Below, one piece after another: positions 5,356 to 25,865 of a stretch of DNA of 45,882 bases. The stretch is from IMG/VR virus record IMGVR_UViG_3300044617_000450, positions 1 through 45,882 of that record; one strand, written 5' to 3'. Origin of the DNA: a virus. The notes below the pieces were generated by a model. It was given only the letters and a program-made list of their open reading frames with translations, made no database searches and was not told the origin of the DNA. Position 1 is the first letter of the stretch. Every line of letters begins with the position of its first letter. A program made the position numbers and the translations under genes.

Positions 5356-5661
5356 ATGGATATCAATACACTTTTGGCTGACGCCAAAGCCCGTTTCAGT
5401 CACAATTCAGCAAAGCATTATCTAAAAGAGAAATACAATTCAAAATTAACCTTTGCCGATCAAGGTGGATTATGGAAGGCTGATAAAGAAACTATCAGCG
5501 TATTAAATGCATTCGATTCGGAAAGAGTTGTCATTATGGACACCTTCGAAAATCCAGTAGAAGTAGATAGAAAAGAATTATTAAGAAAGTTGACTGCTAT
5601 CTATAACGAAACTATGTCAGCATGGGTCGCTGAGTTAAAGGAATTAGAGGGTAAACGATGA
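5356..5661 (+). CDS. Conserved small phage protein, unknown function
   Basis: 101 residues, charged and mostly helical by appearance, with a short beta centre (VVIMDTFENPVEVDRKELL). No signal peptide or membrane segment. The start is supported by a GAGGAG Shine-Dalgarno sequence embedded in a small hairpin, and by a late-type TCTAAATAC box at 5327-5335. The stop overlaps the ATG of the next gene. It is the first gene of the long accessory cluster and follows the fibre genes, so it could be a fibre-assembly helper or belong to the accessory island. I do not recognise a function. Confidence 0.6.
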   Translation: MDINTLLADAKARFSHNSAKHYLKEKYNSKLTFADQGGLWKADKETISVLNAFDSERVVIMDTFENPVEVDRKELLRKLTAIYNETMSAWVAELKELEGKR

Positions 5662-6467
5662 CACGTGGTGCGATACTTTTCGCATTCAATAGTCCTAAAT
5701 ATGATTATTACGCTATGGCAGAACATACTGCTAAACGTATTAATCATTTTTTAGACATGCCAGTAACGATTGTTACTGATGAATCATCATTGGCAAGCAA
5801 GACAGATTACGAATTTGATAAAACGGTAATCATCGAACCTGATCGTACTAATCGTAGAGATTGGGGAATATGGATCAATAAAGGTAGATATCAAGCATAT
5901 GAGTTAAGTCCCTATGATGAGACATTATTGCTTGATGTTGATTATATGGTCAATAGTAATAAATTATTAACGTGCTTTGAGTTATATGATGATTTTTTCT
6001 GCCACGATACAACTAGTTTTGCTATGTATCCCAAGGCTCCTCAAGAAGTATTAAGCGGGTATAGTTTTAATACATTGTGGGCTACCGCAATAGTATTCAA
6101 AAAGACACAAAGAGTCAAACAAATATTTGAGTCATTAGAGATGGTTCAAAAGAATTTTGCGCATTATTCTAATATTCATCATTTCATTGCTAACACTTTT
6201 AGAAATGATTATGGACTTACGTTAGCACTGCGATTAGTTAACGGACACACATTACCTAAACAAGACATAATTCCCTGGAATCTATTTCACATAGGCAAAA
6301 ATACCACTGTGTATGCAAACAGTGATGACGAATTCAATACTGAGTATACTATACTTTTTGATAATTGGCAAAGAGGTAAAATAAGAAAAGAATACATCAC
6401 TGTAAAAGATATGGATTTTCATGTCATGAATAAAGATAATTTTGTGGAGTTGATCAATCATGGATAA
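5658..6467 (+). CDS. GT-A-type glycosyltransferase-like protein
   Basis: 269 residues. The N-terminus (GAILFAFNSPKYDYYAMAEHTAKRI) and the order strand, nucleotide-binding region, LLLDVDYMV match a GT8-like GT-A fold. DVD near residues 94-96 would be the DxD metal and sugar-nucleotide site. The RRDWGIWINKGRYQAYELSPYDETLLLD segment is typical of the phage branch, where an Asp/Glu pair follows a conserved YxAYELSPY motif. The start overlaps the previous stop in ATGA and its own end overlaps the next gene by 8 bases, indicating translational coupling. Donor and acceptor are unknown. Confidence 0.65.
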   Translation: MTRGAILFAFNSPKYDYYAMAEHTAKRINHFLDMPVTIVTDESSLASKTDYEFDKTVIIEPDRTNRRDWGIWINKGRYQAYELSPYDETLLLDVDYMVNSNKLLTCFELYDDFFCHDTTSFAMYPKAPQEVLSGYSFNTLWATAIVFKKTQRVKQIFESLEMVQKNFAHYSNIHHFIANTFRNDYGLTLALRLVNGHTLPKQDIIPWNLFHIGKNTTVYANSDDEFNTEYTILFDNWQRGKIRKEYITVKDMDFHVMNKDNFVELINHG

Positions 6468-7257
6468 AGGATTTGTAATATTAGCACAGAATACTGAATT
6501 CGTGAATTATGTCAAGTGCGCAGAAGTATTAGCGGGAAGCATAAAAAAACATATGCCCAATGCTAATATTTCATTGATAAGTGATGATGTGGATGACGCA
6601 AAGAATTTTGATCAAGTAATAGCATTACCATATGGTGATTTGGATCCTATAGGTAATTGGAAACTAGTCAATGACTGGCAAGTATATGAAGCAAGCCCGT
6701 ACGAATACACTATCAAGTTAGAAGCAGACATGTTCTTGCCGAAATCTGTAGATTACTGGTGGGATACTTTGATGCATAGAGATGTAGTATTGTGTTCAAC
6801 TATCAGAAATTTTCGTCAAGACATAAGCAAGGAAAGATTCTATCGTAGATTCATCGATGAGAATAAACTTCCTGATGTTTATAATGCTATAACTTATTTT
6901 AAGAAAAGCGAAACCGCTGAACATTTTTTTAAGTTAGTTCGATTCATCTTTGAGAATTGGCCTGCAATAAGGGGAACATTGAAGTGTAACTCAAATGAGC
7001 CGGCTACTACAGACTGGGTTTATGCTTATGCCGCACACATCATGGGCCCAGAAAAAGTAACGTTACCTGGATACAAAGATTTGTCCATGGTACACATGAA
7101 GCAATGGGTTAACGGATTGCCAAGCGAAGACTGGACTCAGATATTGATATACGAAGCGTTACCAGAAGTTTTACGCATCAATACAGTGCCTCAGATATAT
7201 CCTTTTCACTATCATGTGAAAACTTTTGCTGATAAACTAGAGAATTGCTATGAGTGA
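6460..7257 (+). CDS. GT-A-type glycosyltransferase-like protein
   Basis: 265 residues with the same layout as the preceding gene: an N-terminal Rossmann-like strand (GFVILAQNTEFVNYVKCAEVL), SISLISDD-like second strand, and YEASPYEYTIKLEADMFLP where EAD (about residues 88-90) takes the place of DxD. The SPYE/SPYD element before the acidic motif is shared with the upstream protein, suggesting an ancient tandem duplication. A His-containing C-terminal region (IYPFHYHVKTFADKLE) may complete the metal site, as in GT8 enzymes. It overlaps both neighbours. The fold is likely; the substrate cannot be told. Confidence 0.6.
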   Translation: MDKGFVILAQNTEFVNYVKCAEVLAGSIKKHMPNANISLISDDVDDAKNFDQVIALPYGDLDPIGNWKLVNDWQVYEASPYEYTIKLEADMFLPKSVDYWWDTLMHRDVVLCSTIRNFRQDISKERFYRRFIDENKLPDVYNAITYFKKSETAEHFFKLVRFIFENWPAIRGTLKCNSNEPATTDWVYAYAAHIMGPEKVTLPGYKDLSMVHMKQWVNGLPSEDWTQILIYEALPEVLRINTVPQIYPFHYHVKTFADKLENCYE

Positions 7258-7597
7258 AACACAAGATTACGTATTAGTTTTTGAGGCTCCAAAAATAGAA
7301 GCACCTGAGTTTCGTCTTTACTATGATGAAGAAACCGGTAAAGTATTATTCTATACTTGCGAAAAGCCTGAAGGAAAGTTCATCGTCATCGATAGCATTA
7401 CCTTTGCCTGCGCAAGGCAGGATGTAAGAGTAATAGATGGCAAATTATCAACAGTAAATCCGTCATCTATCATCAGCAAATTAAAACTAACTGAATCTGA
7501 TGGTGTAAAATGTTTGATAGAGGATATAAGCATCATTGCAGATGAAGATAGTACAGATGTTCAAACATGGAAATTGCTAACATATGAGTTACGATGA
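7250..7597 (+). CDS. Small protein of unknown function in the glycosyltransferase/radical SAM cluster
   Basis: 115 residues, acidic, predicted mainly beta by eye (VLVFEAPKIEAPEFRLYYDEETGKVLFYTC). Two cysteines occur, near residues 42 and 59. No known domain, signal peptide or membrane segment is visible. It overlaps the upstream gene by 8 bases and the downstream gene by 14, so it is translated within the cluster. Its size and its place just before a radical SAM array make it one of few candidates for a small substrate or accessory protein, but nothing in its sequence proves this. Confidence 0.55.
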   Translation: MSETQDYVLVFEAPKIEAPEFRLYYDEETGKVLFYTCEKPEGKFIVIDSITFACARQDVRVIDGKLSTVNPSSIISKLKLTESDGVKCLIEDISIIADEDSTDVQTWKLLTYELR

Positions 7598-8537
7598 TCT
7601 TATAGATGTCGCTGACTTAGATTGCATATATCTAAGTTATGATGAGCCACAAAAAGAAGAATTTTGGATAAAAATTAAGAACATGGTTCCCTACGCTAAA
7701 CGAGTTGACGGCGTTAAGGGAAGTGATGCCGCACATAAAGCGGCCGCTGAAGCAAGCGATACAGAAAGATTCATACTCATCGATGGGGATAATATGCCTA
7801 ATGAAGATTTCTTCAATCTTCAATTAGATTTTCGTGGGCTAGATGAGTCATATAAAAAAGCACAGTTTCGTTGGAAGGCTATTAATAATATAAATGGCTT
7901 GCGTTATGGAAATGGCGGCATGAGTTCATGGACAAAAGATTATGTCTTTAACATGAAGACGCATGAACATACAGATGGTAGCACAGCGACACAAGTTGAT
8001 TTTTGCATGGATAGCGCAGATAGTCTATATTGGGCTATGAATGATTGCTATAGCACTACTTACCCTAATCAAACTCCGTTTCAAGCATGGCGTGCAGGCT
8101 TTCGTGAAGGGGTCAAGATGGTACTTGACCGCGGTGCTAGACCTACTGTAGATGACTTCAAAAACCGTGTGGCTACGAGAAATCTAAATAATCTCACGAT
8201 ATGGCATAATGTAGGCATGGATGTTGAGAATGGTGATTGGGCTATTTACGGAGCAAGGTTGGGGACACATATGACTTTGCTCACTGATTGGGATCATAAA
8301 CAAGTCATGTGGTTTGATACATTACACAGAATGTGGGATGGAATCTTCAGACACATGAGACCCCTCATTGAGGGTGATCGAATCGGAAATATATTGAAGG
8401 ACAAACTCGACTTACCTATCTGTCGTCTTGATGCCGAACAAAGTAAATTTTTCAAAAGACACTATAATGCTGACAAGCATAATATAGGTCCTCTTGTGAA
8501 AGAGATGGATGTCATCAGGAAGATAGAAGGCTGGTAA
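7584..8537 (+). CDS. Glycosyltransferase-like protein related to the giant repeat protein's C-terminus
   Basis: 317 residues. A GT-A-like N-terminal half contains CIYLSYDEP, KRVDGVKGSDAAHKAAAEAS and FILIDGDNMP; DGDN (about residues 68-71) is a plausible DxD site. Then follow NGLRYGNGGMSSWTKDYV and, at residues 155-180, TYPNQTPFQAWRAGFREGVKMV. The same ordered motifs (VDGVDG, HAALEAS, NGLEYGHQGM, NTDPYSTWRTAFREVIKL) recur in the last 220 residues of the 2113-residue protein at 25874-32215, which lacks the DGDN. This copy therefore looks like the catalytically intact member of the family. The product is unknown. Confidence 0.6.
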   Translation: MSYDDLIDVADLDCIYLSYDEPQKEEFWIKIKNMVPYAKRVDGVKGSDAAHKAAAEASDTERFILIDGDNMPNEDFFNLQLDFRGLDESYKKAQFRWKAINNINGLRYGNGGMSSWTKDYVFNMKTHEHTDGSTATQVDFCMDSADSLYWAMNDCYSTTYPNQTPFQAWRAGFREGVKMVLDRGARPTVDDFKNRVATRNLNNLTIWHNVGMDVENGDWAIYGARLGTHMTLLTDWDHKQVMWFDTLHRMWDGIFRHMRPLIEGDRIGNILKDKLDLPICRLDAEQSKFFKRHYNADKHNIGPLVKEMDVIRKIEGW

Positions 8538-9940
8538 TGAGTTACGAAATAGACAGAATAAAACAGATAAAGATCGTAGTAGAAAATGAAGCGACTCCTA
8601 CATTCTGTTTAGCAAAGTGGCATCATGTCACAATGTACCTACAATCAGGCGAGACACATAGTTGCTATCACCCTAGACCTCACAAGATTCCATTAGAAGA
8701 ACTTGTAGACAATCCTAGCGCACTACATAACACAAAAGAGAAAAAACTAGAGCGTAAGATGATGCTTGAGGGTAAAAGACCTGAAGGCTGTCAATATTGC
8801 TGGAACGTAGAAGACATGGGTCCTGATTATGTGAGTGATAGACATATCAGAAATGCCAGTATACACACTGAAGAACGTTTTGAACAATGTGCTAAAGGTA
8901 GCCATGAGCAAAACATCAATCCAGAATATCTAGAAATCAATTTCGGTAATGACTGTAATTTCAAGTGCGGTTACTGTCATCCTAAGTACAGCACAAGTTT
9001 CTATAACGAGATCAAGCAAAATGGCCCTGTGACTTCAGTAAAGAATCACCGTTGTGATATCGATTGGATGAAGTTATATCAGCGTGAAGAAGAAAATCCC
9101 TATGTTGATGCGTTCTGGAAATGGTGGCCCGAACTACGTAAGACATTAACGATCATGCGTATCACGGGCGGCGAACCAACAATGCACCGTAGTACATACC
9201 GAGTCATTGAAGAACTGGACAAAGATCCAGCACCATGGCTTGAGTTAAATGTTAATAGCAACCTTGGAACTAAGACTGCTTTAGTTGAGAAACTAGCAAG
9301 TTCTGTAAGGAAATTATGCGATGAAAATAAGATACGCAGTTTCAAGTTATTCTCAAGCATTGATACATGGGGCAATAGAGCCGAATATATCAGAACGGGA
9401 ATGGACATAGGATTGTGGGAGAAAAACCTACACACCTATCTCACATTGACCAATAGCCCTGTTACTTTCATGATCACATTCAACATTTTTAGCGTGACTA
9501 CATTTAAATCATTGCTTGAAAAGTTGTTAGAATGGCGCGGTATGTATGACTGGTATGATGATCCAGTCAATCCCCAACATCGTGTTAGATTTGATACTCC
9601 TTATCTACGCGAACCCCTCCAGTACGATATGAACATACTCCCTAAAGATGAGTTCATGCCGTACATGGAGGAATCTTTAAAGTTCATGGAAGAAAACGTA
9701 GACGACAAGTCCAGCAAGAAATTTAGTTCAATCGAATATGAAAAGTTCAAACGTGTAGTAGATTACATGCGTGAGACTTACTATAGCGAAGAAAAATTGA
9801 TTGAAGGTCGCAGAGATTTTTATAACTGGTTCAATGAACTAGACGAACGTAGAGACACAAATATGCTTGATGTATTTCCTGAAATGATGAATTTCTACAG
9901 ATTGTGTCAAGAAACAAATAGGCTCAATCCATTACCATGA
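8537..9940 (+). CDS. Radical SAM protein with N-terminal auxiliary Cys cluster (1 of 6)
   Basis: 467 residues. The radical SAM [4Fe-4S] motif is CNFKCGYC (C140, C144, C147), followed by the SAM-contacting TGGEPT motif (RITGGEPTMH). Before the barrel sits a second Cys group: C24, C43 and a CQYC pair at 85/88, matching the auxiliary-cluster pattern of the neighbouring paralogues although PW is replaced by KWHH and one Cys of the CC pair is lost. Enzymes of this type use SAM and an auxiliary cluster for peptide or small-molecule modification; the substrate is unknown. Its A of ATG is the last base of the previous stop codon, and it overlaps the next gene by 4 bases. Confidence 0.8.
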   Translation: MSYEIDRIKQIKIVVENEATPTFCLAKWHHVTMYLQSGETHSCYHPRPHKIPLEELVDNPSALHNTKEKKLERKMMLEGKRPEGCQYCWNVEDMGPDYVSDRHIRNASIHTEERFEQCAKGSHEQNINPEYLEINFGNDCNFKCGYCHPKYSTSFYNEIKQNGPVTSVKNHRCDIDWMKLYQREEENPYVDAFWKWWPELRKTLTIMRITGGEPTMHRSTYRVIEELDKDPAPWLELNVNSNLGTKTALVEKLASSVRKLCDENKIRSFKLFSSIDTWGNRAEYIRTGMDIGLWEKNLHTYLTLTNSPVTFMITFNIFSVTTFKSLLEKLLEWRGMYDWYDDPVNPQHRVRFDTPYLREPLQYDMNILPKDEFMPYMEESLKFMEENVDDKSSKKFSSIEYEKFKRVVDYMRETYYSEEKLIEGRRDFYNWFNELDERRDTNMLDVFPEMMNFYRLCQETNRLNPLP

Positions 9941-11172
9941 ATCTAACTACTGAACAAAAACAAGAACTATTAACTACAAACAAAAGTTTTTGTATGCTGC
10001 CGTGGATCAGTATGCATGTCACCCCTACGGGTGTAGCGACACCTTGTTGTATAGGTAATCAGATTCATCCAGTAGGTAATGCTAATCAGATGTCATTGAT
10101 GGAACTAGTCAATAGCGAAGCCATGAATGATTTAAGAAGAGACATGCTAGAGGGTACCAAGAACCCTATATGTAGCGCATGTCATAGACATGAAGAGCAA
10201 GGCATTTATAGTTTTAGACAGAACATCAACGAGATGTTTGGAAAATACACAGATGAGGTATTGTCTGCCACTGACATCACAGGTGAATTGGGTCAGTTCA
10301 AGATGCGCTATTTTGATCTACGATTGAATAATATATGTAACATGAAATGTCGTACATGTAACAGTCATTATAGCAGTCAATGGGAGAATGAAGATGCTAA
10401 ACAAGGAAGATCCCTGATCACTATACAAAAAGAGAATCGTAGCAAATATGTTGATGATATATTGACACACGTACAGCATATCGACATGGCTTATTTTGCT
10501 GGCGGAGAGCCATTGATCACAGAAGAGCATTATATAATGCTTGAAGAGATGATCAAGTTGGGTAGGACAGACATCAGACTTAGATACAATACTAACCTCA
10601 GTAATCTAAAATACAAAGATAAAGACCTACTTGATTTATGGAGACACTTTGATAAAAAGATAGAAGTCTATGCAAGCATAGATGATTTTGGAAAAAGAGC
10701 AGAATACATACGATCAGGTACTGTATGGGAACAGATAGAACAAAATTTTAGAAGAGTTAAAAGCGTACCCTATATAACTATGCAGATCAATAGTGTATTG
10801 AGTATTTTTAATTTCACTACGTTCGGTGAGTTTTATCATTACTTGTTGGATAACAAATTGTATGAACCCACAGATAGCGTGAACTACATATATAACATGA
10901 TCAGCCCGGTACATATTGCCGCATTAGCCTTACCCGTGCATTTGAAATTACAAGGCATAGAAGGCCTTGAAAGCGTGATAAGAAGAATGAATGATATGGG
11001 TTTTAAAAGAGAGCATATGCAAACATTAGTCGATGCTAAAAAATGGGTATTAGCAGAAAACACCTGGGATCAGCATAAAAAAGAATTTCAAGAAGAGACG
11101 AATAGATTAGACAATATACGTGAAGAAAAGTTCGCTGACGTATTTCCAGAATTAGCAGAGTTGATGGAATGA
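9937..11172 (+). CDS. Radical SAM protein with N-terminal auxiliary Cys cluster (2 of 6)
   Basis: 411 residues. The N-terminal cluster motif is complete: C19 in CMLPWISMHVTPTG, C37-C38 in TPCC, and C79/C82 in CSAC. The radical SAM triad is C134, C138, C141 (CNMKCRTC) and the GGE motif is AGGEPL. A GN motif follows the CC pair, as in SPASM/twitch auxiliary domains, but here the domain precedes the barrel rather than following it. The C-terminus (FADVFPELAELM) matches the ends of neighbouring paralogues (LLDIFPELKPLW, MLDVFPEMMNFY), a family signature of unknown meaning. Gene overlaps on both sides indicate coupled translation. Confidence 0.82.
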   Translation: MNLTTEQKQELLTTNKSFCMLPWISMHVTPTGVATPCCIGNQIHPVGNANQMSLMELVNSEAMNDLRRDMLEGTKNPICSACHRHEEQGIYSFRQNINEMFGKYTDEVLSATDITGELGQFKMRYFDLRLNNICNMKCRTCNSHYSSQWENEDAKQGRSLITIQKENRSKYVDDILTHVQHIDMAYFAGGEPLITEEHYIMLEEMIKLGRTDIRLRYNTNLSNLKYKDKDLLDLWRHFDKKIEVYASIDDFGKRAEYIRSGTVWEQIEQNFRRVKSVPYITMQINSVLSIFNFTTFGEFYHYLLDNKLYEPTDSVNYIYNMISPVHIAALALPVHLKLQGIEGLESVIRRMNDMGFKREHMQTLVDAKKWVLAENTWDQHKKEFQEETNRLDNIREEKFADVFPELAELME

Positions 11173-12380
11173 GAAAACCTATAGATAAAGATGTTGTATG
11201 CTTGATGCCGTGGATACACATGCATATATGGCCTAACGGCAACACTTTTCCCTGTTGCATGAGCGATAGCAATGAAGTGTTCGGCAACGTATACAAAGAG
11301 AACATCAATAAACTAATCAATAATGATAAGTTCAACGAGTTGCGTAGACAGATGTTGAACGGTGAAAAGCCCAAAGCATGTACACGCTGTTATGAACTAG
11401 AGACGAGCGCAGATAGTTGGACATTACGTAAGAACAGTTTAGTTAGTTTCGAGAAGCATATGGATCTGTTTGATAAGACAAACGAAGACGGGTCCATCGA
11501 TGATTACAAGATGTATTACATGGATATACGTTTCAGCAATTTGTGTAATATGAAATGCAGGACGTGCGGACCAGAACTAAGCAGTAGTTGGTATGAAGAT
11601 CAAGTAAAGATGCATCCAGACTACCCTAAGTCAAAGTTTATTGACTTGAAGAACAACCCATTCTTCATGGATGACTTATTGCCGCATTTGAACTATGTAG
11701 AAGAAGTTTACTTTGCGGGCGGTGAAGCACTGATAACACCACAGCACTACCAAGTACTTGACTATTGGCTAGAGAAGGGTAGAACAGATGTAAGATTACG
11801 CTACACCACTAACTTTAGCGCATTAAAGTTGAAAGACAAATCTATATTAGATTATTGGAAGATGTTCAAGGATGTGAGGGTGGCAGCAAGTTTAGATACG
11901 TATGGTGACAGAGCAGAGTATTCTCGCAGTGGTACAGATTGGGATCGCATCGTTAAGAACCGCAGACAGATGATCGAGAGTTGCCCTGACGTATATTTTG
12001 AGATCACTCCGACTGTTAGCGTGTTCAGCGTACATAGTTTGTTTGATTTTCATAGAACATGGGTGGAACAAGAATTGTTGAATATCGACAATATTCGTGT
12101 CAATATATTAACACATCCAAGATACTTTAGCATCACTATGCTTACACCTGAACAAAAACGAGAAGTGCATGAATTATATGACCGTTACATAAAATGGTTA
12201 GAAGATAATAGTGCGCAACCACAGACTATACACGCAGTAAAGGGTATAGTTGACTATATGGATAGCGCGAATCACATAGATTTAATACCTGAATTTAAAA
12301 ATGTGATAACTAAGATAGACATCTTAAGAGATGAATCTTTACTAGATATTTTTCCGGAGTTGAAGCCATTATGGACATAA
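11169..12380 (+). CDS. Radical SAM protein with N-terminal auxiliary Cys cluster (3 of 6)
   Basis: 403 residues, the closest paralogue of the preceding protein. It has C11 in CLMPWIHMHIWPNG, C29-C30, a CTRC pair near residue 75, the barrel triad C126, C130, C133 (CNMKCRTC) and AGGEAL in place of AGGEPT. A DIRFSNLCNMKC strand and a YFAGGEALITPQHY segment parallel YFAGGEPLITEEHY in the upstream gene, supporting recent duplication. The C-terminal LLDIFPELKPLW signature is present. No membrane segment. Reaction and substrate are unknown; auxiliary-cluster radical SAM enzymes commonly act on peptides or sugars. Confidence 0.82.
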   Translation: MRKPIDKDVVCLMPWIHMHIWPNGNTFPCCMSDSNEVFGNVYKENINKLINNDKFNELRRQMLNGEKPKACTRCYELETSADSWTLRKNSLVSFEKHMDLFDKTNEDGSIDDYKMYYMDIRFSNLCNMKCRTCGPELSSSWYEDQVKMHPDYPKSKFIDLKNNPFFMDDLLPHLNYVEEVYFAGGEALITPQHYQVLDYWLEKGRTDVRLRYTTNFSALKLKDKSILDYWKMFKDVRVAASLDTYGDRAEYSRSGTDWDRIVKNRRQMIESCPDVYFEITPTVSVFSVHSLFDFHRTWVEQELLNIDNIRVNILTHPRYFSITMLTPEQKREVHELYDRYIKWLEDNSAQPQTIHAVKGIVDYMDSANHIDLIPEFKNVITKIDILRDESLLDIFPELKPLWT

Positions 12381-13738: not shown

Positions 13739-14717
13739 ACTAATAGCAATTGAACCCATGTTTCATCCCTATGTGAACATCACATGGCAGGTGAATGATT
13801 TCTGTAATTATAAGTGCAAGTATTGCAATCCTGGCAACTGGGCCGGCATGAATCCCAAACGAGACAAGCCAGAAGACTTTGAAAAGATCAAAGAGAATCT
13901 AGATAAGATCATACGTCACTTTGAGTCAAAGGGTACTAAGGGATATAAATTTTACTTCAGCGGCGGAGAACCAACAGTATGGCCGCATCTGATACCATTG
14001 ATCAATTGGCTTAAGATTCGCATCGATGATCCTCATATTGGTATCAATACTAATTTAAGCCGTAGTACTGAATGGTGGAAGACACACTATCATTTGTTTC
14101 ATGATGTCGTGGCTAGTTTTCATATTGATTTCGCGAATCGCGAACGCTATCTTGAGAACCTTGTATTTTTACAAAATAAAGTAAACTATCTTTGTAGCCG
14201 CATGATGATGCAAGAAGATCGCTTCCAAGAGGTTGTTGATTTCGGTGAGAAAGTAAAGGCTACACTACAGAATTATAATGTAGAATGGGTACCGTTATTT
14301 GACGATATTAGTGTTGATGTAGGGCCGTGGAAGTACAGTGAAGAATGGATGTATGAGTTTTTCAAAACACACACGTTTGAATCACAGATCAAGATACACA
14401 AGCCAGACGGTAGTAAGTGGATGTGTGCAAGTAAAGAAGTCTATGAATCAGGAAATGAACAGTCATTGAATGGTAATCGTATCGTAGCAGAGCGCAGGAA
14501 TTTCTTTAGCGGCTGGGAGTGTAACGTAGACGAGTCATTGTTTATCAATAGTAAAGGTCATACCACTGCTGCAAGTTGTGGTCAAGGTCCTGTGTTGGGT
14601 AATATTTACGAAGAGATAGAACTCATGTCTAAACCAATAACATGCAAAAAGATGCAATGCACTTGTGGTACTGACATCATCATAACTAAACGAGCACCGG
14701 CGGAGCAAAATGCCTGA
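13731..14717 (+). CDS. Radical SAM protein with C-terminal SPASM-like Cys region (5 of 6)
   Basis: 328 residues and architecturally different from its neighbours. The radical SAM triad comes early (C25, C29, C32 in CNYKCKYC), followed by SGGEPT. The auxiliary Cys region is at the C-terminus: WECNVDESLFINSKG, SCGQGPVLGN and KKMQCTCG, spaced like a classical SPASM/twitch domain. In the flanking genes the equivalent C-(W)-PxG-CC-GN pattern precedes the barrel instead. The protein is thus the conventional-order relative in the array. It overlaps both neighbours by 8 bases. Substrate unknown. Confidence 0.8.
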   Translation: MDKLIAIEPMFHPYVNITWQVNDFCNYKCKYCNPGNWAGMNPKRDKPEDFEKIKENLDKIIRHFESKGTKGYKFYFSGGEPTVWPHLIPLINWLKIRIDDPHIGINTNLSRSTEWWKTHYHLFHDVVASFHIDFANRERYLENLVFLQNKVNYLCSRMMMQEDRFQEVVDFGEKVKATLQNYNVEWVPLFDDISVDVGPWKYSEEWMYEFFKTHTFESQIKIHKPDGSKWMCASKEVYESGNEQSLNGNRIVAERRNFFSGWECNVDESLFINSKGHTTAASCGQGPVLGNIYEEIELMSKPITCKKMQCTCGTDIIITKRAPAEQNA

Positions 14718-18716: not shown

Positions 18717-19555
18717 TAATCGATTATAGAAATTATAAAGAGATAGATTACAAAAAATACAAACGAGTTTTCATATTTGGTTGTAGTTTCACGAAATATG
18801 AATGGCCCACGTGGGCTAACATACTATCATATGAAATGCCAGACGCAGAAATTTATAATTTCGCACAGTCAGGTGCCGGTAATCTTTTCATATCAGAAAG
18901 AGTCATAGCCGCAAATCAGCGATATAGATATAATAAAGACGATTTGATATTGTTGATGTGGTCTACGCATAGCAGAGAAGACCGTTATATAGAGCATGGT
19001 TGGGAAACTCCCGGTAATATATTCACGCAAGGTTTCTATTCAGAAGAGTTTGTGAAGAAATATTCCTGCGTTAAGGGATATGTAGTAAGGGACTTAGCGT
19101 TGATGACTATGATTAAGAATAGTTTAGAGAATTTCCCCTGTGATTCTGTTATGTTTAAATCAGTTGAACCTGAATATGACAAGAAATTGTTCATGGGAAA
19201 TGCCTTTGAAGAAGTGATAGATTTATACAGAGATGTCATCTATAGCATGGGTCTACCATTATACAACTTTGTTCACAACGGAAAAGGTGGATGGATCAAT
19301 GGGCATTTGTATCATTGGTCTAGCATTTCATATTCAAGTTATGAAACGCCGTTTCAAGACTACCACCCTAATCCTGCCATGTACATGGATTTTTTAATGA
19401 AGTCAGATTTTGTGCTGTCATCAGAAACACAAGAAAGAGTCACAAGATACAATGAAGAATTGTTAAAATTAAAGGATAGACAATCCATAGAAAATTGGTT
19501 TAAAAAGATAGCGGACAGCAATCCTAAATATAACCATAACATACATTTAATTTAA
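18713..19555 (+). CDS. SGNH hydrolase-like protein, third copy
   Basis: 280 residues. RVFIFGCSFTKYEWPTW provides a GCSF nucleophile motif in place of GDSF (Ser near residue 26), followed by NFAQSGAGNLFI as the Gly/Asn blocks and a late DYHPNPAMYMDFL with the catalytic Asp-x-x-His pattern. This is a more canonical SGNH arrangement than in the tandem pair upstream and is not closely similar to them. The stop is followed by 46 noncoding bases with a late-type box, so it ends the long overlapping cluster. Substrate unknown; acyl sugar is a guess from neighbours. Confidence 0.65.
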   Translation: MIIDYRNYKEIDYKKYKRVFIFGCSFTKYEWPTWANILSYEMPDAEIYNFAQSGAGNLFISERVIAANQRYRYNKDDLILLMWSTHSREDRYIEHGWETPGNIFTQGFYSEEFVKKYSCVKGYVVRDLALMTMIKNSLENFPCDSVMFKSVEPEYDKKLFMGNAFEEVIDLYRDVIYSMGLPLYNFVHNGKGGWINGHLYHWSSISYSSYETPFQDYHPNPAMYMDFLMKSDFVLSSETQERVTRYNEELLKLKDRQSIENWFKKIADSNPKYNHNIHLI

Positions 19556-19569: not shown

Positions 19570-19578
19570 AATAAATAT
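19570..19578 (+). promoter_or_regulatory. Late-promoter-like box AATAAATAT
   Basis: In the 46-base gap between the SGNH gene and the nucleotide-sugar dehydrogenase, 23 bases before its ATG. Confidence 0.5.
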
Positions 19579-19601: not shown

Positions 19602-20810
19602 ATGAGTAAGACAGTAGCAATGATTGGAGTGGGTAAACTCGGACAAGATTGTGCCGAGGTCATGGCAGAACACTATAACGTCATAGGGTATGACGTAGAA
19701 CCAAGAACCCCTGCTAATTTTAATATGGCTTCTACTATTGAAGAAGCAGTAAAAGACAGAGATTTCATATTCATCGCGGCACCAACCCCGCATGATCCTA
19801 TTTACGGTGGTGAGACTCCTACTAGTCACCTACCCAAGAAAGACTTTGACTATACTATCGTCACTAACATCCTCAAAGAAGTAAACAAGTTTGTTAATAA
19901 GAATCAACTAGTGATATTGATCAGTACAGTATTGCCGGGAGTTGTGCGCGGACAGTTAGAACCCTGCATCACTAATGCACGTTTCATCTACAACCCATAT
20001 CTCATCGCTATGGGAACTATAAAGTGGGATATGACTAATCCAGAAATGGTTATCATCGGTACAGATGACGGTTCTATCACAGGTGATGCACAAGAACTCA
20101 TTGACTTCTACAAGCCTATGATGGATAATGCCCCGCGCTATGAAGTGGGTACATGGGACGAAGCAGAAGCAATTAAGATTTTCTATAATACATTCATCTC
20201 AACCAAACTCGCATTAGTAAATATGATCCAAGACGTAGCAGAACGTAATGGCAATATGAACGTTGACGTTGTGACTAATGCATTAGCCAACAGCACACAT
20301 CGTATCATGAGCAATCGTTATATGACTGCGGCTTTGGGTGATGCAGGCGCATGTCACCCTAGAGACAACATCGCATTGCGTTATATGGCAGACAAGTTAA
20401 ACTTAGGTTATGACTTGTTCGATGCCATCATGCTTGCTAGAGAGATACAAGCAGAGAACATGGCAAAGAAATGTCTAGAGTATGGTAAGCGCGTAGCGAT
20501 CATAGGCAAGGCGTACAAGCCGGCTGTGCATTATACTAATGGTAGTGCTAGCATGTTAGTAGGCTACTATGTAGAAAAGCATGGCGGTGAAGTACGTTAT
20601 GTAGACTTCAACACGGGTGACAACGATAGTCAATCAGACTGGGCCGATGTATATTTGATCGGTTATTGGGAAGATTGGGTTAAGGGTGTATTGGGTACGA
20701 TACAATCAAATTCTGTATTGATAGATCCGTGGCGCAAGGTCACTAAGTCTGATGTCAATTGTGAATTCGTACACTACGGTGACACCAGAAAAAAAAAGGT
20801 AGCGAATTAA
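19602..20810 (+). CDS. UDP-glucose/GDP-mannose-type nucleotide-sugar 6-dehydrogenase
   Basis: 402 residues. An N-terminal Rossmann fold (AMIGVGKLGQDCAEVM, GxGxxG at 8-13) binds NAD. The central domain has K202 in FYNTFISTKLALVNM and the catalytic Cys at 251 in GACHPRDN, matching the family GGxCxPKD site. The C-terminal domain contains GKAYKPAVHYTNGS, equivalent to GLAFKxxTDDxRxS. Such enzymes oxidise a nucleotide-linked hexose to the uronate in two NAD-dependent steps. A strong Shine-Dalgarno (GAGAGGA) and a late-type box precede it. It could feed a uronic acid to the neighbouring glycosyltransferases; which sugar is not decidable. Confidence 0.85.
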   Translation: MSKTVAMIGVGKLGQDCAEVMAEHYNVIGYDVEPRTPANFNMASTIEEAVKDRDFIFIAAPTPHDPIYGGETPTSHLPKKDFDYTIVTNILKEVNKFVNKNQLVILISTVLPGVVRGQLEPCITNARFIYNPYLIAMGTIKWDMTNPEMVIIGTDDGSITGDAQELIDFYKPMMDNAPRYEVGTWDEAEAIKIFYNTFISTKLALVNMIQDVAERNGNMNVDVVTNALANSTHRIMSNRYMTAALGDAGACHPRDNIALRYMADKLNLGYDLFDAIMLAREIQAENMAKKCLEYGKRVAIIGKAYKPAVHYTNGSASMLVGYYVEKHGGEVRYVDFNTGDNDSQSDWADVYLIGYWEDWVKGVLGTIQSNSVLIDPWRKVTKSDVNCEFVHYGDTRKKKVAN

Positions 20811-20822: not shown

Positions 20823-20849
20823 GCCCAGACAAAGATTTCATGTCTGGGC
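20823..20849 (+). promoter_or_regulatory. Hairpin enclosing a start codon
   Basis: GCCCAGACA (20823-20831) pairs perfectly with TGTCTGGGC (20841-20849) around a 9-base loop; the ATG at 20840 straddles the loop/stem boundary. No T tract follows, so translational control is more likely than termination. Confidence 0.5.
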
Positions 20850-22003
20850 CCTACAATTGTTTCTATTCATGTTTTCCTGAACTGAAGCAGTTCCAAGACA
20901 AAATCTATATCCTTTATGCATCGACACATGCTGATCATGCTTTCCATTGGCGCGACACATTAGAAGTAATCAGTGAGATACGCGAAGCAAGGAAGCAAGG
21001 GAAAACTAAGATAGTTTTCTTTAACGGTAGCGAAACCTTCATGCATCCTCAGTTATATAAAGCGCAGAGGATAGCAGAATTATTGACAGACATACCTCAG
21101 TCTGATCTTTTTTATTGCGTAGGCGTGCCTAATGGACAGAAGTTCTATGACGATCTATGTGTAGAAAGAAATTGGATTCCTAAATTCACCGTGTTAGGAG
21201 CACATCACTTTGAGTTTGTTATTCATAACTATGCTAAAGGAATGAAATATGCATCAATCGATGAGGGTATTGATTTAGATGAGTTAGAATATGAAGTAAG
21301 ACCTAAAGAAAAGTTATTTGTGTGTTTCAATAAAGTACATCGCAGCCATAGAATAAGATTGTTTGCAGAAGCAATACGTAACAAATGGTTAGATAAATCA
21401 TTTTATAGTTTTGAGGGTGGATATCCGGACTGGTATGAATTATCTACTAAACGTTTGTGGACAGCCACGCAAGAAGATCATGACGATATCATGACTATTA
21501 AAGACAAGTTACCGCTTAGGCTGAACATCACTAACCAGCGAGGTAATCCTGTAGACTTACGTTTAGACGATATCAAGTATCACGAAGAAAGTTACTTCAG
21601 CGTCATCACAGAAACGATATTCTACAAGTATCATCCAACAAAGTCTGACTTCATGTATATGGATACTCTTTTCCTCAGTGAAAAGATATATAAACCCTTC
21701 GCATTCAAACACCCGTTCATATTATTTGGATGGCATGGTGCTTTGAAAGCGTTGCGAGACAGGGGATATAAGACATTTCACCCGTATATAAACGAGAGTT
21801 ACGATGACGAACCCGATTCACATAAGAGATTTTCTATGTTGATAGAAGAGATCAAAAGATTGGAACAATTCACTACTGAGCAATGGATAGAATGGCAAAA
21901 TAATATTAAACCGTTAGTGGAACATAATTATAAATATCTTATGAATTTAACAGAACACAGAGACGGTCCACCGGTGGATCATCTTTTTAACGATTTAGGA
22001 TAA
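20840..22003 (+). CDS. Glycosyltransferase-like protein of the EK-xPF-HPYINESYDDE type
   Basis: 387 residues. The C-terminal part (LFLSEKIYKPFAFKHPFILF, then LRDRGYKTFHPYINESYDDE) is nearly identical in pattern to that of the protein at 17487, so the two are paralogues. KLFVCFNKVHRSHRIRLF, around residues 155-175, matches the KYLNFNRRWRLQRPTFVALL block of the other. The start at 20840 sits in a 9-bp hairpin and has no Shine-Dalgarno sequence; the next in-frame Met is much further in, so I keep this start. Likely a GT-B-like transferase; donor unknown. Confidence 0.5.
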   Translation: MSGPYNCFYSCFPELKQFQDKIYILYASTHADHAFHWRDTLEVISEIREARKQGKTKIVFFNGSETFMHPQLYKAQRIAELLTDIPQSDLFYCVGVPNGQKFYDDLCVERNWIPKFTVLGAHHFEFVIHNYAKGMKYASIDEGIDLDELEYEVRPKEKLFVCFNKVHRSHRIRLFAEAIRNKWLDKSFYSFEGGYPDWYELSTKRLWTATQEDHDDIMTIKDKLPLRLNITNQRGNPVDLRLDDIKYHEESYFSVITETIFYKYHPTKSDFMYMDTLFLSEKIYKPFAFKHPFILFGWHGALKALRDRGYKTFHPYINESYDDEPDSHKRFSMLIEEIKRLEQFTTEQWIEWQNNIKPLVEHNYKYLMNLTEHRDGPPVDHLFNDLG

Positions 22004-22010: not shown

Positions 22011-24251
22011 ATGTATAATGACTTCATGGCTCTGGCTAAGAAAGAATGGAAGCCCAACGATAAACCAGATCCAGATATTGCAGACGCAAAGCATCTAAAC
22101 ATGATGCAAGCGATTGCCCCGTATGTCAAGCAATCTGTTCAAAAGAATGTAACAAACGTTGACATAAGTTATGCTACACGCAAAACTAAGTTGATGATGA
22201 TATTGTTGCCTGAATGGGCACCTGAATTTCCTCCTTTCAACCTTGCTAGACTTGTAGCAGTTGCTAAAGGATCGGGATATCAAACTAATGCATTAGATTT
22301 AAACATCAAAGCATTCCGTTATCTAAGAAACAAAGTCAATACTAAGGTTCTTGATTTCGATCCATGGGACGGAGCGAGAGAATGGAAGTGGCTAGCAGCC
22401 AACTATTATACTGACATACATCCACACCTAGAACAATTGTTTTTAGACCACATAGAACACATTTGTAAGAATCCACCAGATGTCATTGGTTTCAGCGTTT
22501 ATTACTGTAACGAAGAACCAGTTAACTGGATGATTAGAGAATTTAGAAAACGATTACCTAACGTAAAAATCATAGTTGGCGGAAGCAATACTCATAATCA
22601 AGTACAGAGAATGTGCGACTTCAGCATTCAAAATGATAACCTATATGATTATATTTGTAACGGTGAGGGTGAGCAGATATTATTACAGATATTAGAAGAG
22701 ATTGAGAACGGTGTAACTCACGATCAAACTCAGATAAGAAAACAACCTGAAGAACAGCGAATCAACATCAGCAATCTGCCGCTACCGGACTACAGCGATT
22801 TCAATATGAATGAATATCGCTTCCCCAACGGCGTATGTAGTGAATTAAGTCGCGGATGTACAGCAAAATGTACATTCTGTGAAGAGACACACTTCTGGCG
22901 TTATCGTCAAAGACAAGCGACTGACGCAGTAACAGAAGTCGAGCATTTGTATTATAATTATGGTACTGATGTATATTGGTTTATCGACTCATTAGTTAAC
23001 GGCAACATCAATGAATTAAGAGCATTCGCTAAAGGAGTTAAAGCGAAAGGCTTGAACATTCACTGGACTGGATATGCACGTTGCGATGGTCGTATGGATC
23101 TAGATTACTTCCAAGACCTTGCGGATAGTGGTTGTATCATGCTCAATTATGGTATCGAATCAGGCAGTCAAAAAGTGCTTGATGATATGAGCAAAGGTGT
23201 GACTATCAAAGAGATGGAGCAGAATCTACATGACGGTAAAAAGACCGGAGTCATGGCTTTCACTAATTGGTTGATAGGATTTCCTACAGAAGATTATCAA
23301 GACTTTGCTGATACAATGACTTTCTTGTGGCGTAATAGAAATACAAGTTTTGTCAACATCGCAGCAGGTTTCGGATTTGGATTAGGCCCCACAAGTATCG
23401 TAGGTCAGAATCCAGAAAGATTCAATGTTTTAGATCATCAATATCTAGACCAATGGATCACTAAAGATTTTAGATTATCTAAGATGCATGTGGTAAAGCG
23501 AATGAAGATGTTCGCCGCGTTCTTACAAAACGTAGTCTTTGAAAAAGATGTAGTCATACCTAACAGACCTAATCTGCCTAAGTTTCATTATAAGATTGAA
23601 TACAACGATCCTACAAGATTAAACGAGATAGAATACGAGAGATTCGATTATAACATAGCAAAGCCTAACATCAGTAATTTCGCTGATAGTATGTTTAATG
23701 AGATGTTCGTATTCTGGAGAATGATATGGCGCGCCCGTGGTGGGTTTAAAGGTGTCATGGTATTCGATGAAGACTTAGATATGAAAGAATGGGGCGGAAG
23801 AAACGCTGGTCCTATGTGGGCAGAGCATACTTTTGAGATAACAGATGATGGAAAGTGGAAGGCACGTAGTTGGATAAAGTATAAACAACCGCCTGCTAAT
23901 TTAGGACTTCATGATCCATTAGCACGAAGAAGTCCTTTCTTTGCTCAAGATTATAGCCGTTATCAAATTAATACTGCTAAACGTGCTAGAGTGTTTGCTA
24001 AGCCTAAGTGGGGCGAAGAAGGTAGAAATCACGATGAATTCATGTGGCTGATACAAGAAGAAAAGATAATGAATCAAGTACTAGACTTTAGTTTTGAACA
24101 TGTATGGGAAGGTGAGGGCGACTGGTCTAATCCTGAACAGTATCAAATTGACGTACCTGGTGGTGAAAGTTGGAAGTTAGCAAAGGCTCAGGCTGCCGCT
24201 AAGTTGCCGGAAGTGCAGGAAATCAAATTTCCTCTTAAGAAAACCGGCTAA
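22011..24251 (+). CDS. B12-binding-domain radical SAM protein
   Basis: 746 residues. Residues 55-235 look like a cobalamin-binding domain (LMMILLPEWAPEFPPFNLARL; DVIGFSVYYCNEEPVNW; VKIIVGGSN; YICNGEGEQILLQIL), without the DxHxxG motif, as is common in this class. The barrel has C283, C287, C290 (CTAKCTFC), followed by HWTGYARCDGRMD and YGIESGSQKVLDDMSKG, typical of the COG1032/MiaB-like or methyltransferase group. The last 250 residues are Trp-rich and unrecognised. Such enzymes often methylate unactivated carbons or rearrange rings. An ATG at 22026 is an alternative start. Confidence 0.8.
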   Translation: MYNDFMALAKKEWKPNDKPDPDIADAKHLNMMQAIAPYVKQSVQKNVTNVDISYATRKTKLMMILLPEWAPEFPPFNLARLVAVAKGSGYQTNALDLNIKAFRYLRNKVNTKVLDFDPWDGAREWKWLAANYYTDIHPHLEQLFLDHIEHICKNPPDVIGFSVYYCNEEPVNWMIREFRKRLPNVKIIVGGSNTHNQVQRMCDFSIQNDNLYDYICNGEGEQILLQILEEIENGVTHDQTQIRKQPEEQRINISNLPLPDYSDFNMNEYRFPNGVCSELSRGCTAKCTFCEETHFWRYRQRQATDAVTEVEHLYYNYGTDVYWFIDSLVNGNINELRAFAKGVKAKGLNIHWTGYARCDGRMDLDYFQDLADSGCIMLNYGIESGSQKVLDDMSKGVTIKEMEQNLHDGKKTGVMAFTNWLIGFPTEDYQDFADTMTFLWRNRNTSFVNIAAGFGFGLGPTSIVGQNPERFNVLDHQYLDQWITKDFRLSKMHVVKRMKMFAAFLQNVVFEKDVVIPNRPNLPKFHYKIEYNDPTRLNEIEYERFDYNIAKPNISNFADSMFNEMFVFWRMIWRARGGFKGVMVFDEDLDMKEWGGRNAGPMWAEHTFEITDDGKWKARSWIKYKQPPANLGLHDPLARRSPFFAQDYSRYQINTAKRARVFAKPKWGEEGRNHDEFMWLIQEEKIMNQVLDFSFEHVWEGEGDWSNPEQYQIDVPGGESWKLAKAQAAAKLPEVQEIKFPLKKTG

Positions 24252-24255
24252 ATAA
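24247..24255 (+). promoter_or_regulatory. Late-promoter-like box GCTAAATAA
   Basis: Overlaps the stop of the B12-radical SAM gene and precedes the 33-aa gene and carbamoyltransferase. Confidence 0.45.
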
Positions 24256-24275
24256 TAGACTCAGAGGGGCAAATT

Positions 24276-24377
24276 ATGAAATGGTTAGTTAACTGGTGGA
24301 AAAAGATCAAGCGAGAATATCAGTATCGCAAGCGTTTAAAAGAATTACGTAAAAGAGACCCTTTCATCTATAAGTGA
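24276..24377 (+). CDS. 33-aa basic microprotein
   Basis: A 33-residue protein, strongly basic (Lys/Arg in about 40% of positions), beginning MKWLVNWWKKIK and ending RKRDPFIYK. A good Shine-Dalgarno (GAGGGG) precedes the ATG by 6 bases, and a late-type GCTAAATAA box lies just upstream. The amphipathic Trp/Lys N-terminus could contact membrane or nucleic acid. I recall similar small ORFs ending LRKRDPFIYK in related aquatic phages but cannot confirm this without a search. It sits 3 bases before the carbamoyltransferase gene. Confidence 0.65.
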   Translation: MKWLVNWWKKIKREYQYRKRLKELRKRDPFIYK

Positions 24378-24380
24378 TAT

Positions 24381-25865
24381 ATGGCATATATAGGATTAAG
24401 TTGCGGATTTCATGACGCAGGACTAAGTGTCGTCAGCGATACAGGCGATATATTATTCGCAGGTCACAGCGAAAGATATAGTAAGAAAAAACATGATCCT
24501 GACCTATGTGCAGACATAATCGATGAAGCATTGAGATATGTAGCAGGTCAAAATTATGAGATACATTACTACGAGAAACCTTGGCTCAAGGCTATACGTC
24601 AGTTTAGAGCAGGGCAACCTATAGGACCATTGTCAGTCAAACAAATCGTAGGTCCAGAGTTATTAGATCGTATGAATGATCGCTCTGTTAAGACACACAT
24701 ACATCATAAGACACACGCAGCCGCAGGATTTCAAACTAGCCCTTACAATGAAGCAACGGTTGTAGTCATAGATGCTATAGGTGAACTTGACTGTATCAGT
24801 ATATGGCATGCTTATTATGATCATAACGGCTATGCAAAATACAAAAAACTATGGGGTAAACAATATCCTAATAGTATAGGCATGTTCTATAGTGCGATGA
24901 CACAAAAAGTAGGCTTGAAGCCTATGGACGAAGAATATATCCTAATGGGTATGGCTGCATACGGCAAGCCGAGACATGCTACTCGCATGGCAAGCACATT
25001 TTTAGAAGATATGTTTGAGTTAGAGTTCAGACAAAATCTACATATAGGATTATCAGAAAATAATTTCTTAGATAAAGCAGAAGACATGGACATCGCAGCC
25101 AGCGCACAGGTTCTGTGTGAAGCAATGATTGAAAAAGTCATGCAGAAAGCCAAGAGCATAGGCAAGAGTAAAAATCTTGTATACGGTGGTGGTGTTGCTC
25201 TTAACTGTCTTGCTAACAGACTATTAGGAAAGTATTTTGAGAACATATGGATAATGCCTAACCCAGGAGATGCAGGTAATAGTTTAGGGGCCGCGGCATT
25301 GGGATATGGCAAGAAAGTAAATTGGAACGATGCATTCTTAGGTACTGATATCAAAGGACCATATCCTGTAGATAAAGTTGTCAAAGAACTAAAAGAGAAT
25401 AAGATGGTAGGTGTTGCCAGCGGAAGAGCAGAATTCGGGCCTCGCGCATTGGGCAACCGTAGTTTATTGGCCGATCCTCGAGGACCCGAGATAAAGGACA
25501 TAGTTAATGAGATCAAACGAAGACAAAAGTTCAGACCATTTGCGCCGATCATTCTGGAGGAGTTGGTTCATGATTACTTTGATATGCCTGCTAACTGGAG
25601 TGACAGTAGGTATATGCAAGTCATCGCTAAGTGCAGGAATCCTGACTTATATCCTGCTATCTGTCATCACGACCTTACTAGTCGTGTACAGACTGTGCCT
25701 AAAGATGGCTCAGGAATTAGAAAACTCTTAGAGAAATGGTATGCGGCTACTGGCTGTCCTATGCTACTTAATACGTCATTAAACATACGCGGTGAGCCTA
25801 TGGTCAATGATCGTAGTGATGCTGATCGTTTTGAAAAATTATATAACCTAAAAGTAATCTCATAA
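24381..25865 (+). CDS. Carbamoyltransferase of the NodU/CmcH type
   Basis: 494 residues. The N-terminus (IGLSCGFHDAGLSVV) carries the FHDAG phosphate-binding motif and HSERYSKKKHD follows. The hallmark of the C-terminal ATP/carbamoyl-AMP domain, GRAEFGPRALGNRSLL, lies at 348-363, then ADPR and KFRPFAPIILEE. NTSLNIRGEPMV near the end is also conserved. These enzymes transfer a carbamoyl group from carbamoyl phosphate through carbamoyl-AMP to a hydroxyl on a sugar or small molecule. Length is slightly below the family average and every key block is present. Its acceptor is likely the glycan made by neighbouring genes. Confidence 0.9.
   Translation: MAYIGLSCGFHDAGLSVVSDTGDILFAGHSERYSKKKHDPDLCADIIDEALRYVAGQNYEIHYYEKPWLKAIRQFRAGQPIGPLSVKQIVGPELLDRMNDRSVKTHIHHKTHAAAGFQTSPYNEATVVVIDAIGELDCISIWHAYYDHNGYAKYKKLWGKQYPNSIGMFYSAMTQKVGLKPMDEEYILMGMAAYGKPRHATRMASTFLEDMFELEFRQNLHIGLSENNFLDKAEDMDIAASAQVLCEAMIEKVMQKAKSIGKSKNLVYGGGVALNCLANRLLGKYFENIWIMPNPGDAGNSLGAAALGYGKKVNWNDAFLGTDIKGPYPVDKVVKELKENKMVGVASGRAEFGPRALGNRSLLADPRGPEIKDIVNEIKRRQKFRPFAPIILEELVHDYFDMPANWSDSRYMQVIAKCRNPDLYPAICHHDLTSRVQTVPKDGSGIRKLLEKWYAATGCPMLLNTSLNIRGEPMVNDRSDADRFEKLYNLKVIS

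Follow-up and report, generated by a model that had tools for sequence, protein, structure and literature searches.

What does a T4-like phage make with a row of glycosyltransferases and seven radical S-adenosylmethionine (SAM) enzymes encoded behind its tail-fibre genes? The question is raised by IMG/VR virus record IMGVR_UViG_3300044617_000450. We analysed it over all of its 45,882 bases (hereafter, the window), and close copies exist among IMG/VR contigs. An original prediction, made from the letters of the sequence alone, had described a dense glycan-modifying and radical-enzyme block at 5658-25865, expressed late and acting on the surface of the virion or of the host. The block is real. 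Pfam, PHROGs, and NCBIfam confirmed its radical SAM, dehydrogenase, and carbamoyltransferase genes, and its open reading frames (ORFs) sit where they had been predicted, in a tight run of genes on the same strand (5356-32215, plus strand). We conclude that large, uncultivated T4-like water phages conserve here a variant of their host-recognition island that is rich in radical SAM genes. In our preferred interpretation, to which we give slightly less than even odds (around 0.45), it encodes a late cytosolic pathway that decorates virion proteins with a tailored glycan, the likeliest acceptors being the tail-fibre-type proteins encoded upstream.

A conserved gene order behind fibre genes

The window is a fragment of a T4-like phage; we class it and its relatives as such because gp23 is present in seven of 17 related records. 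Between 5658 and 19555 the intergenic gaps range from -16 to +5 bases, i.e., the genes overlap or nearly touch. The end of the block had been set too early. The gene that we call GIANT starts eight bases past the carbamoyltransferase gene, is linked to it also in three relatives (L004, L005, and L066), and bears a domain resembling GT-A glycosyltransferases (GT). Hence, we extended the island to 32215.

We studied the spread of the block by scanning for the marker gene RS1. A viral scan built on an alignment of 12 RS1 proteins gave matches in at least 599 stretches, of which at least 587 were confirmed and the best 80 were used. Together with earlier scans this gave 96 viral loci, 78 of them distinct, and each tally includes only the loci with enough flanking sequence. 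The anchor sets for RS1, GTc, and o5 are best-80 lists from exact-pattern scans, in which near relatives are over-represented. In 67 of 75 loci, the first recognised gene on the upstream side of RS1 was a member of the GTc family. Within 9 kb upstream (50 loci) we found GTc in 49, S4 in 42, o5 and IMC in 41 each, and S2 in 33; tail-fibre-type genes thus preceded RS1 in about 41 of 50 loci. Within 9.9 kb downstream (52 loci) there were GT-B-like genes in 50, N_Twi and RS5 genes in 49 each, and the B12 enzyme in 36. SGNH-like genes and UGD (12 loci each) and the carbamoyltransferase (two loci) were much rarer. At least five radical SAM genes lay between RS1 and 9.9 kb downstream in 48 of the 52 loci. 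These tallies indicate a constant core (GTab-GTc-RS1) and variable outer genes (carbamoyltransferase, UGD, SGNH-like).

The other two anchors gave the same picture: of 77 loci anchored on GTc, 74 had RS1 at most 4 kb away, and all 37 anchored on o5 had it downstream. A search for the same gene set in other phages had been proposed as a check, and among IMG/VR relatives it was positive with all three anchors. We rejected a chance arrangement, since the same order recurred whichever anchor was used. In the comparison with one relative (L007), RS1 (88% identity), RS3 (87%), and GTc (85%) were conserved, and variation was greatest in the outer part (SG2 42-45%, GTe 55%, GTd 61%). Among 50,697 deposited phage records, RS1, GTc, and o5 had no tblastn match at 1e-5. 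Deposited phages also lacked matches to the whole block (megablast) and to GIANT or SG2 (tblastn), while RS3 matched 20 records and the B12 enzyme two.

Late-type promoter elements at conserved places

The element TAAATA, which we take to resemble the T4 late promoter TATAAATA, occurs before IMC, o5, and UGD (Table 1). The whole window is not enriched in TATAAATA with at most one mismatch (95 occurrences for 114.5 expected), so we tested intergenic position and then the relatives. The intergenic plus strand of the window has nine TAAATA elements for 3.0 expected (nine or more in 11 of 2,000 simulations), and the minus strand has none. In relatives, the element precedes o5 in 48 of 52 cases (4.1 expected), IMC in 52 of 56 (9.7 expected), and UGD in 11 of 15 (2.7 expected). 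It is missing upstream of GTa/b (0/105) and o8 (0/46), and nearly so upstream of RS1 (1/73). Intermediate or chance levels were observed for S4 (20/58, 4.5 expected), S2 (3/41, 3.4 expected), and RS2-6 (30/193, 20.8 expected). The late-type promoters of the original prediction therefore hold at these conserved places, though not as an excess over the window at large. Conserved before o5 and absent or nearly so before GTa/b, o8, and RS1, the element supports a putative single late operon that would start behind the fibre genes.

The enzymes of the block

The block encodes seven radical SAM enzymes. The prediction of six plus one of B12 type was borne out by the family profiles (Pfam, PHROGs, and NCBIfam), and the CxxxCxxC motif is kept in all seven proteins. 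Five are members of N_Twi_rSAM, for which we required the curated cut-off of NF033640 (170 bits). RS5, with 43.6 bits, falls below it and represents another branch. The B12-binding enzyme is related to the B12-binding radical SAM C-methyltransferases of TIGR03975 without being a member (111 bits, E 5e-32, for a cut-off of 281.85). Sixteen large related contigs had one to 19 matches to NF033640 each, some of them below the cut-off, with maxima of 19 on a 320-kb contig (G473) and 17 in G006. These contigs were selected through RS1 or GTc, so the presence of radical SAM genes is expected and it is their number that constitutes the observation. None of the control genomes had a match above the cut-off. 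On the phage contig of G006 (L008), further radical SAM genes, N_Twi and others, form another cluster at about 4.8-18.5 kb.

The original prediction counted two to five glycosyltransferase-like genes. We found five in its interval (GTa to GTe), plus GTf and the GIANT domain outside. Pfam, at E ≤ 0.001, named none of the GT-like genes of the window. A profile of 30 rows for GTa and GTb matched glycogenins in the Protein Data Bank (PDB) in 19 of the 20 matches listed, all weak (best E 0.004), and suggests GT8-like enzymes; a first, shallow GTa profile had found no relatives in the PDB. The same type of search found none for GTc, GTd, or the SG proteins. The putative fold of GTc was deduced from the homologous GIANT domain, itself a low-confidence model, and its DxD motif is invariant in 21 sequences. 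The confident AlphaFold model of GTd had 26 PDB matches at E ≤ 0.001 to GT-B-type glycosyltransferases, with TM scores of only 0.3-0.4. PimB' and trehalose-phosphate synthases (OtsA-type) came first and WaaG lower in the list, and on this model GTd has the two-domain GT-B fold.

GIANT contains 20 alignable tandem units of 64-68 residues, with a mean identity of 41% and at most 70% in ungapped comparisons of their DNA. This divergence implies that the array is old. Its orthologues have 1,522 and 1,898 residues, and 13 and 19 copies of the motif versus 24 in the window. The C-terminal domain has homologues in GTc and in the proteins preceding RS1 in other phages. In those the DxD motif is intact (DGD or DAD), whereas GIANT of the window and of L004 has FAK instead. 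In the low-confidence model of GIANT (mean pLDDT 55), 48 of the 50 Foldseek matches listed are glycosyltransferases, and the remaining two belong to the nucleotidyltransferase HddC. Given the poor model, we count these GT-A matches as supporting only. They include, as a weak fold match, the glycosyltransferase of the PBCV-1 major capsid (2p72).

The predicted nucleotide-sugar dehydrogenase and carbamoyltransferase are both genuine, the former of UGD type and the latter of NodU/TobZ type, each with Pfam and PHROG support. The central and NAD domains of UGD (53.6 and 51.3 bits) and the domains Carbam_trans_N and Carbam_trans_C (120.7 and 162.9 bits) are above cut-off. The three SGNH hydrolases of the prediction fared less well. 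SG1 to SG3 do carry G[DC]SF motifs, and the alignments of SG1 and SG2 conserve Ser and His. Yet, none has an SGNH match in Pfam even at E ≤ 1, nor a PDB profile match to an SGNH enzyme. We therefore call them SGNH-like. With this correction and that of the island's end, the original observation is partly confirmed.

Table 1. Features of the island and its surroundings, by position in the window.
Feature	Position	Strand	Evidence or remark
Late-type promoter-like element GATAAATA, before IMC	3378..3385	+	
IMC, tail-fibre-type protein with Peptidase_G2 autoproteolytic chaperone domain, candidate acceptor	3407..4336	+	PF11962 E 1.3e-7; virion structural PHROG 14394
S4, putative structural protein (310 aa), conserved before the block	4369..5301	+	Ser/Thr-rich (26.5%)
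Late-type promoter-like element TCTAAATA, 21 bases before o5	5327..5334	+	
o5 (101 aa), first gene of the putative operon	5356..5661	+	37/37 o5 loci then have GTab, GTc, RS1
GTa, GT8-like (glycogenin-like)	5658..6467	+	profile A10 vs PDB glycogenin E 0.004; DVD motif
GTb, paralogue of GTa, GT8-like	6460..7257	+	same profile; DxD-type motif
o8, conserved protein (115 aa)	7250..7597	+	
GTc, GT-A-like	7584..8537	+	DGD motif; DxD invariant across 21 sequences
RS1, N_Twi_rSAM, marker gene of the block	8537..9940	+	NF033640 311 bits
RS2, N_Twi_rSAM	9937..11172	+	NF033640 363 bits
RS3, N_Twi_rSAM	11169..12380	+	NF033640 394.5 bits
RS4, N_Twi_rSAM	12371..13738	+	NF033640 277 bits
RS5, radical SAM enzyme of another branch	13731..14717	+	PF04055 E 6.8e-10; MoaA-like by profile
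RS6, N_Twi_rSAM	14710..15969	+	NF033640 281 bits
SG1, SGNH-like	15954..16742	+	GDSF motif only
SG2, SGNH-like	16747..17481	+	GDSF motif only
GTd, predicted GT-B-fold glycosyltransferase	17487..18716	+	AlphaFold pLDDT 88.9; Foldseek PimB' E 4.4e-5
SG3, SGNH-like	18713..19555	+	GCSF motif only
Late-type promoter-like element AATAAATA, before UGD	19570..19577	+	
UGD, UDP-glucose/GDP-mannose dehydrogenase family	19602..20810	+	PF00984 E 2.5e-14; PHROG 9148 E 3.3e-97
GTe, GT-B-like, relative of GTd	20840..22003	+	alignment A9; fold inferred from GTd
B12-binding radical SAM enzyme	22011..24251	+	PF04055 E 1.1e-14; best NCBIfam TIGR03975
Carbamoyltransferase, NodU/TobZ type	24381..25865	+	PF16861 E 6.5e-48; PHROG 1601 E 3.9e-96
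GIANT (2113 aa), tandem repeats and GT-A-like C-terminal domain without DxD	25874..32215	+	outside the interval first predicted
GTf, relative of GTd and GTe, apart from the operon	34128..35240	+	aligns with GTd

Virion or host envelope

A late, surface-related role in sugar modification fits the data better than chance: the glycosyltransferases, UGD, and the carbamoyltransferase have been borne out, relatives conserve the promoter element, and fibre-type genes lie upstream in most loci. The original interpretation is in this sense partly supported. The choice between virion and envelope, which it left open, has been narrowed without being settled.

What bears on this choice is the membrane. 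A simple hydropathy scan predicted no membrane segment in any protein encoded at 5658-32215 (no window above 1.6). In the 16 related contigs, which span 200-367 kb, there was neither a Wzx-type flippase (PF01943, 0/16) nor an OafA-type acyltransferase (PF01757, 0/16), whereas the control genomes were matched in 13 and 10 of 14 cases, respectively. An O-antigen conversion cassette would be marked by a membrane flippase or transferase, or by an acyltransferase; the block has no predicted membrane segment, and the large related contigs have neither of the two families. Lacking membrane parts, such a pathway can act directly on virion proteins in the cytosol, and would reach the envelope only through host machinery. 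For this reason we lean towards a cytosolic, virion-directed pathway and favour the virion over the envelope.

The pathway might proceed as follows. Late transcription would start before o5 and run through GTa, GTb, o8, GTc, RS1, and the remaining radical SAM genes, as suggested by the conserved late-type element and the tight packing. The GT8-like GTa and GTb and the GT-A-like GTc would attach a sugar to a soluble acceptor and extend it. The N_Twi enzymes, RS5, and the B12 radical SAM enzyme would then alter carbon centres, either in the sugar or in the adjacent acceptor. UGD would give a uronic-acid donor, and the GT-B enzymes, SGNH-like proteins, and carbamoyltransferase would add a variable outer part. 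GIANT, whose GT-A-like domain has lost DxD, might be a non-catalytic, sugar-binding scaffold, which is speculative. Equally speculatively, a decorated fibre could bind its receptor differently, or differ in how stable it is or how it is recognised in water.

Several points weigh against decoration of fibres. In nine of the 50 loci there is no IMC gene within 9 kb upstream of RS1. The fibre genes may adjoin the block only because cargo collects there, by analogy with the pelagimyophage host recognition cluster (HRC), described as such a place (PMC7029224). The SGNH assignments stay at the level of motifs, the PDB profile matches that suggest the nature of GTa and GTb are weak (E 0.004), and the membrane prediction is a simple hydropathy scan. 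Finally, the relatives of RS1 near PqqD and S74 genes in predatory bacteria, presented below, could mean that the substrates are proteins rather than sugars.

Somewhat unlikely, though the best of the alternatives, is that the block alters the envelope of the infected host (the O-chain of its lipopolysaccharide, LPS, or its capsule), e.g., against co-infecting phages or the re-adsorption of progeny. This is how similar pelagimyophage islands, where the HRC has glycosyltransferases and radical SAM cassettes, are read in the published account (PMC7029224). Moreover, the Bdellovibrionota relatives of RS1 lie near carbamoyltransferases and Wzm/Wzt-type ABC genes. The absence of membrane parts speaks against it, although peripheral enzymes could still use host export. 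A late-type promoter is also late for superinfection exclusion.

Relatives of RS1 in Bdellovibrionota

A genome scan for RS1 gave 34 loci, and 24 of the 33 placed in the tree carry a Bdellovibrionota label. We excluded four loci from the cellular tallies (30 of 34 kept), while retaining them in the tree, i.e., L116, L131, L133, and L135, which are labelled as bacterial metagenome-assembled genomes (MAGs) and have phage-like or glycosyltransferase-rich neighbours. At E ≤ 1e-40, RS1 was found in 35 of 144 sampled genomes of the phylum of Halobacteriovorax marinus (the genome of L130), versus one of 299 in the phylum of Beijerinckia (the genome of L132). Without the genomes already known (G018, G020, G022, and G023; in the control G025, the centre), the counts are 31 of 140 and 0 of 298. 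The cellular relatives of RS1 are mainly Bdellovibrionota. In the tree, which took part of the viral loci (36 rows) and whose rooting is uncertain, the phages form one well-supported group nested among Bdellovibrionota. This group includes the Bdellovibrio-type loci L102 and L103 and the phage-like MAG contig L131.

Like the window, these bacteria encode the same enzyme family in multi-copy clusters, and in L108 a GTc homologue adjoins RS1. Unlike in the window, the genes are chromosomal and their neighbours are PqqD, S74-domain proteins, and Wzm/Wzt-type ABC genes. Where a cellular locus had 6 kb of flank on either side (12 loci), our own profiles placed PqqD near RS1 in five and Peptidase_S74 in five. 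One or both have Pfam support in L121, L122, L124, L130, and L134. In the last, from a Bdellovibrionales MAG, a 266-residue protein fuses PqqD with Peptidase_S74 (L134:7644-8441) beside ABC-exporter genes and the RS1 homologue. The small S74 proteins of these loci are not themselves fibres. When B. bacteriovorus invades its prey, it employs fibres that bear S74 chaperone domains (PMC10769870); the main text of that paper does not contain the terms glycosyl, radical, or PqqD. The PqqD and S74 neighbours are leads to a shared adhesin role rather than proof of it.

This brings up a further alternative, which we consider unlikely: the radical SAM set would modify side chains of fibre proteins, in an adhesin maturation akin to that of ribosomally synthesised and post-translationally modified peptides (RiPPs), and the sugar genes would either decorate these side chains once modified or work independently. 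Peptides are common substrates of SPASM/twitch radical SAM enzymes. The association with PqqD and S74 within 6 kb in Bdellovibrionota-type loci, including the fusion protein encoded together with ABC genes and RS1 in one operon, points the same way, all the more as PqqD is scarce (one to three matches per genome in eight of nine genomes, and none in the genome of L102). The phage block, for its part, lies behind the gene of an autoproteolytic fibre chaperone. However, the tallies of phage neighbourhoods contain no PqqD-like gene, IMC of the phage has a Peptidase_G2 domain and not S74, phage RS1 is accompanied most constantly by glycosyltransferases, and cellular RS1 is mostly only 34-43% identical to that of the window. 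A broader idea, just as doubtful, is that T4-like water phages and Bdellovibrio-type predators share an RS1-based maturation of fibre-type adhesins. A carbon-centred modification, of a peptide or of a GTc-linked sugar, would be made on chaperone-bearing fibres used against Gram-negative cells, and the gene would have been exchanged between phage and predator.

Two explanations unrelated to surfaces fare worse. It is improbable that the virus makes a small molecule or metabolite: sets of multiple radical SAM enzymes with a carbamoyltransferase and glycosyltransferases do resemble natural-product clusters, but we found no assembly enzyme, precursor, or exporter in the block, and its tie to fibre genes is constant. 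Hypermodification of the bases of phage DNA, by glycosylation, carbamoylation, and additional tailoring, is the least credible, because the block stands beside fibre genes under late-type elements and not beside replication genes, even if phage glycosyltransferases can modify DNA (PMC12619734) and a TSPPY-type methyltransferase-like gene lies at 32748; a Tet/JBP search of the 16 large related contigs matched none, but its control matched nowhere either.

Other features of the window

Right after GIANT, the window encodes an S-adenosylmethionine decarboxylase (32231-32614, plus strand), a SAM-consuming neighbour of the seven SAM enzymes. A COG2908 RNA motif (RF02939, 70.9 bits; 32619-32663, plus strand) separates it from the methyltransferase-like gene. 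A circularly permuted tmRNA of betaproteobacterial type (35673-36024, plus strand; Rfam RF01850 and RF04321 above the gathering score; tag ANDSVYALAA) suggests that the host is a betaproteobacterium. Further on, the plus strand encodes a kinase-like protein (38561-39418) whose C-terminal half is nucleotidyltransferase-like (weak PHROG matches, NMN adenylyltransferase), and a row consisting of a MoxR-like AAA ATPase, an NAD synthase, and a DUF2201 metallopeptidase/VWA protein (40398-43780). With an NAD synthase nearby, the kinase-like protein has a possible role in NAD salvage.

Comparison with known systems

Virus-encoded decoration of virions has precedents. The mycobacteriophages Che8, Corndog, and Myrna decorate capsid and tail-tube proteins with their own glycosyltransferases (Freeman 2023, as cited in PMC12363180 and PMC12619734). 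They have other hosts and acceptors, and these accounts, as cited, describe no radical SAM set or fibre-linked operon. In PBCV-1, virus-encoded glycosyltransferases, e.g., A064R, build the glycan on a virion protein (PMC9614988), and the weak match of the GIANT C-terminus to 2p72 concerns this virus. PBCV-1 differs in being a eukaryotic algal virus, and the source sections mention no radical SAM enzymes. If the virions of the window's phage are decorated, this phage glycan pathway would have an unusually large share of radical enzymes, and a whole uncharacterised family of enzymes would gain a role. The predatory Bdellovibrionota, in which RS1 homologues are concentrated, offer a second system for probing RS1 by deleting its gene, although the deposited phages searched include no isolate with the block.

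Many radical SAM genes in one phage are not unique to this block. The T4-like phage genome TARA_ERS488813_N000010 has 12, which are discussed as belonging to Fe-S cluster metabolism; the words glycosyl and carbamoyl are absent from the main text of that paper (PMC5332604). Among deposited large Vibrio phages, KVP40, K566, and K567 have relatives of the N_Twi type. Vibrio phage K566 clusters four such genes (L136:11965-18707) and is an accessible deposited relative. The regions that we compared in K566 (25 kb) and KVP40 (17 kb) contain no homologues of the glycosyltransferase, fibre, UGD, or carbamoyltransferase genes of the block.

The closest known system is the pelagimyophage HRC, which gathers, for the most part in a single structural region, tail fibres, radical SAM cassettes, UDP-glucose 6-dehydrogenase, and glycosyltransferases, GT8 being the commonest of these, and for which the authors prefer a modification of the host O-chain (PMC7029224). 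The window resembles it in combining fibres, glycosyltransferases, a dehydrogenase, and radical SAM genes in an aquatic T4-like phage. It likewise has a large variable island in the structural region, with tail fibres and glycosyltransferases. Phage sugar-gene islands with radical SAM cassettes are thus already known, but the literature that we found does not describe one as an operon of set gene order that regularly follows the fibre genes. The HRC is described as non-syntenic, with radical SAM genes as added cassettes, and the freshwater members of that study as lacking LPS-related and radical SAM genes (PMC7029224). In contrast, the window and its relatives share a recurrent, ordered o5-GTa-GTb-o8-GTc-RS1-N_Twi-RS5 arrangement, probably an operon, to which the window adds a carbamoyltransferase and a giant repeat protein.

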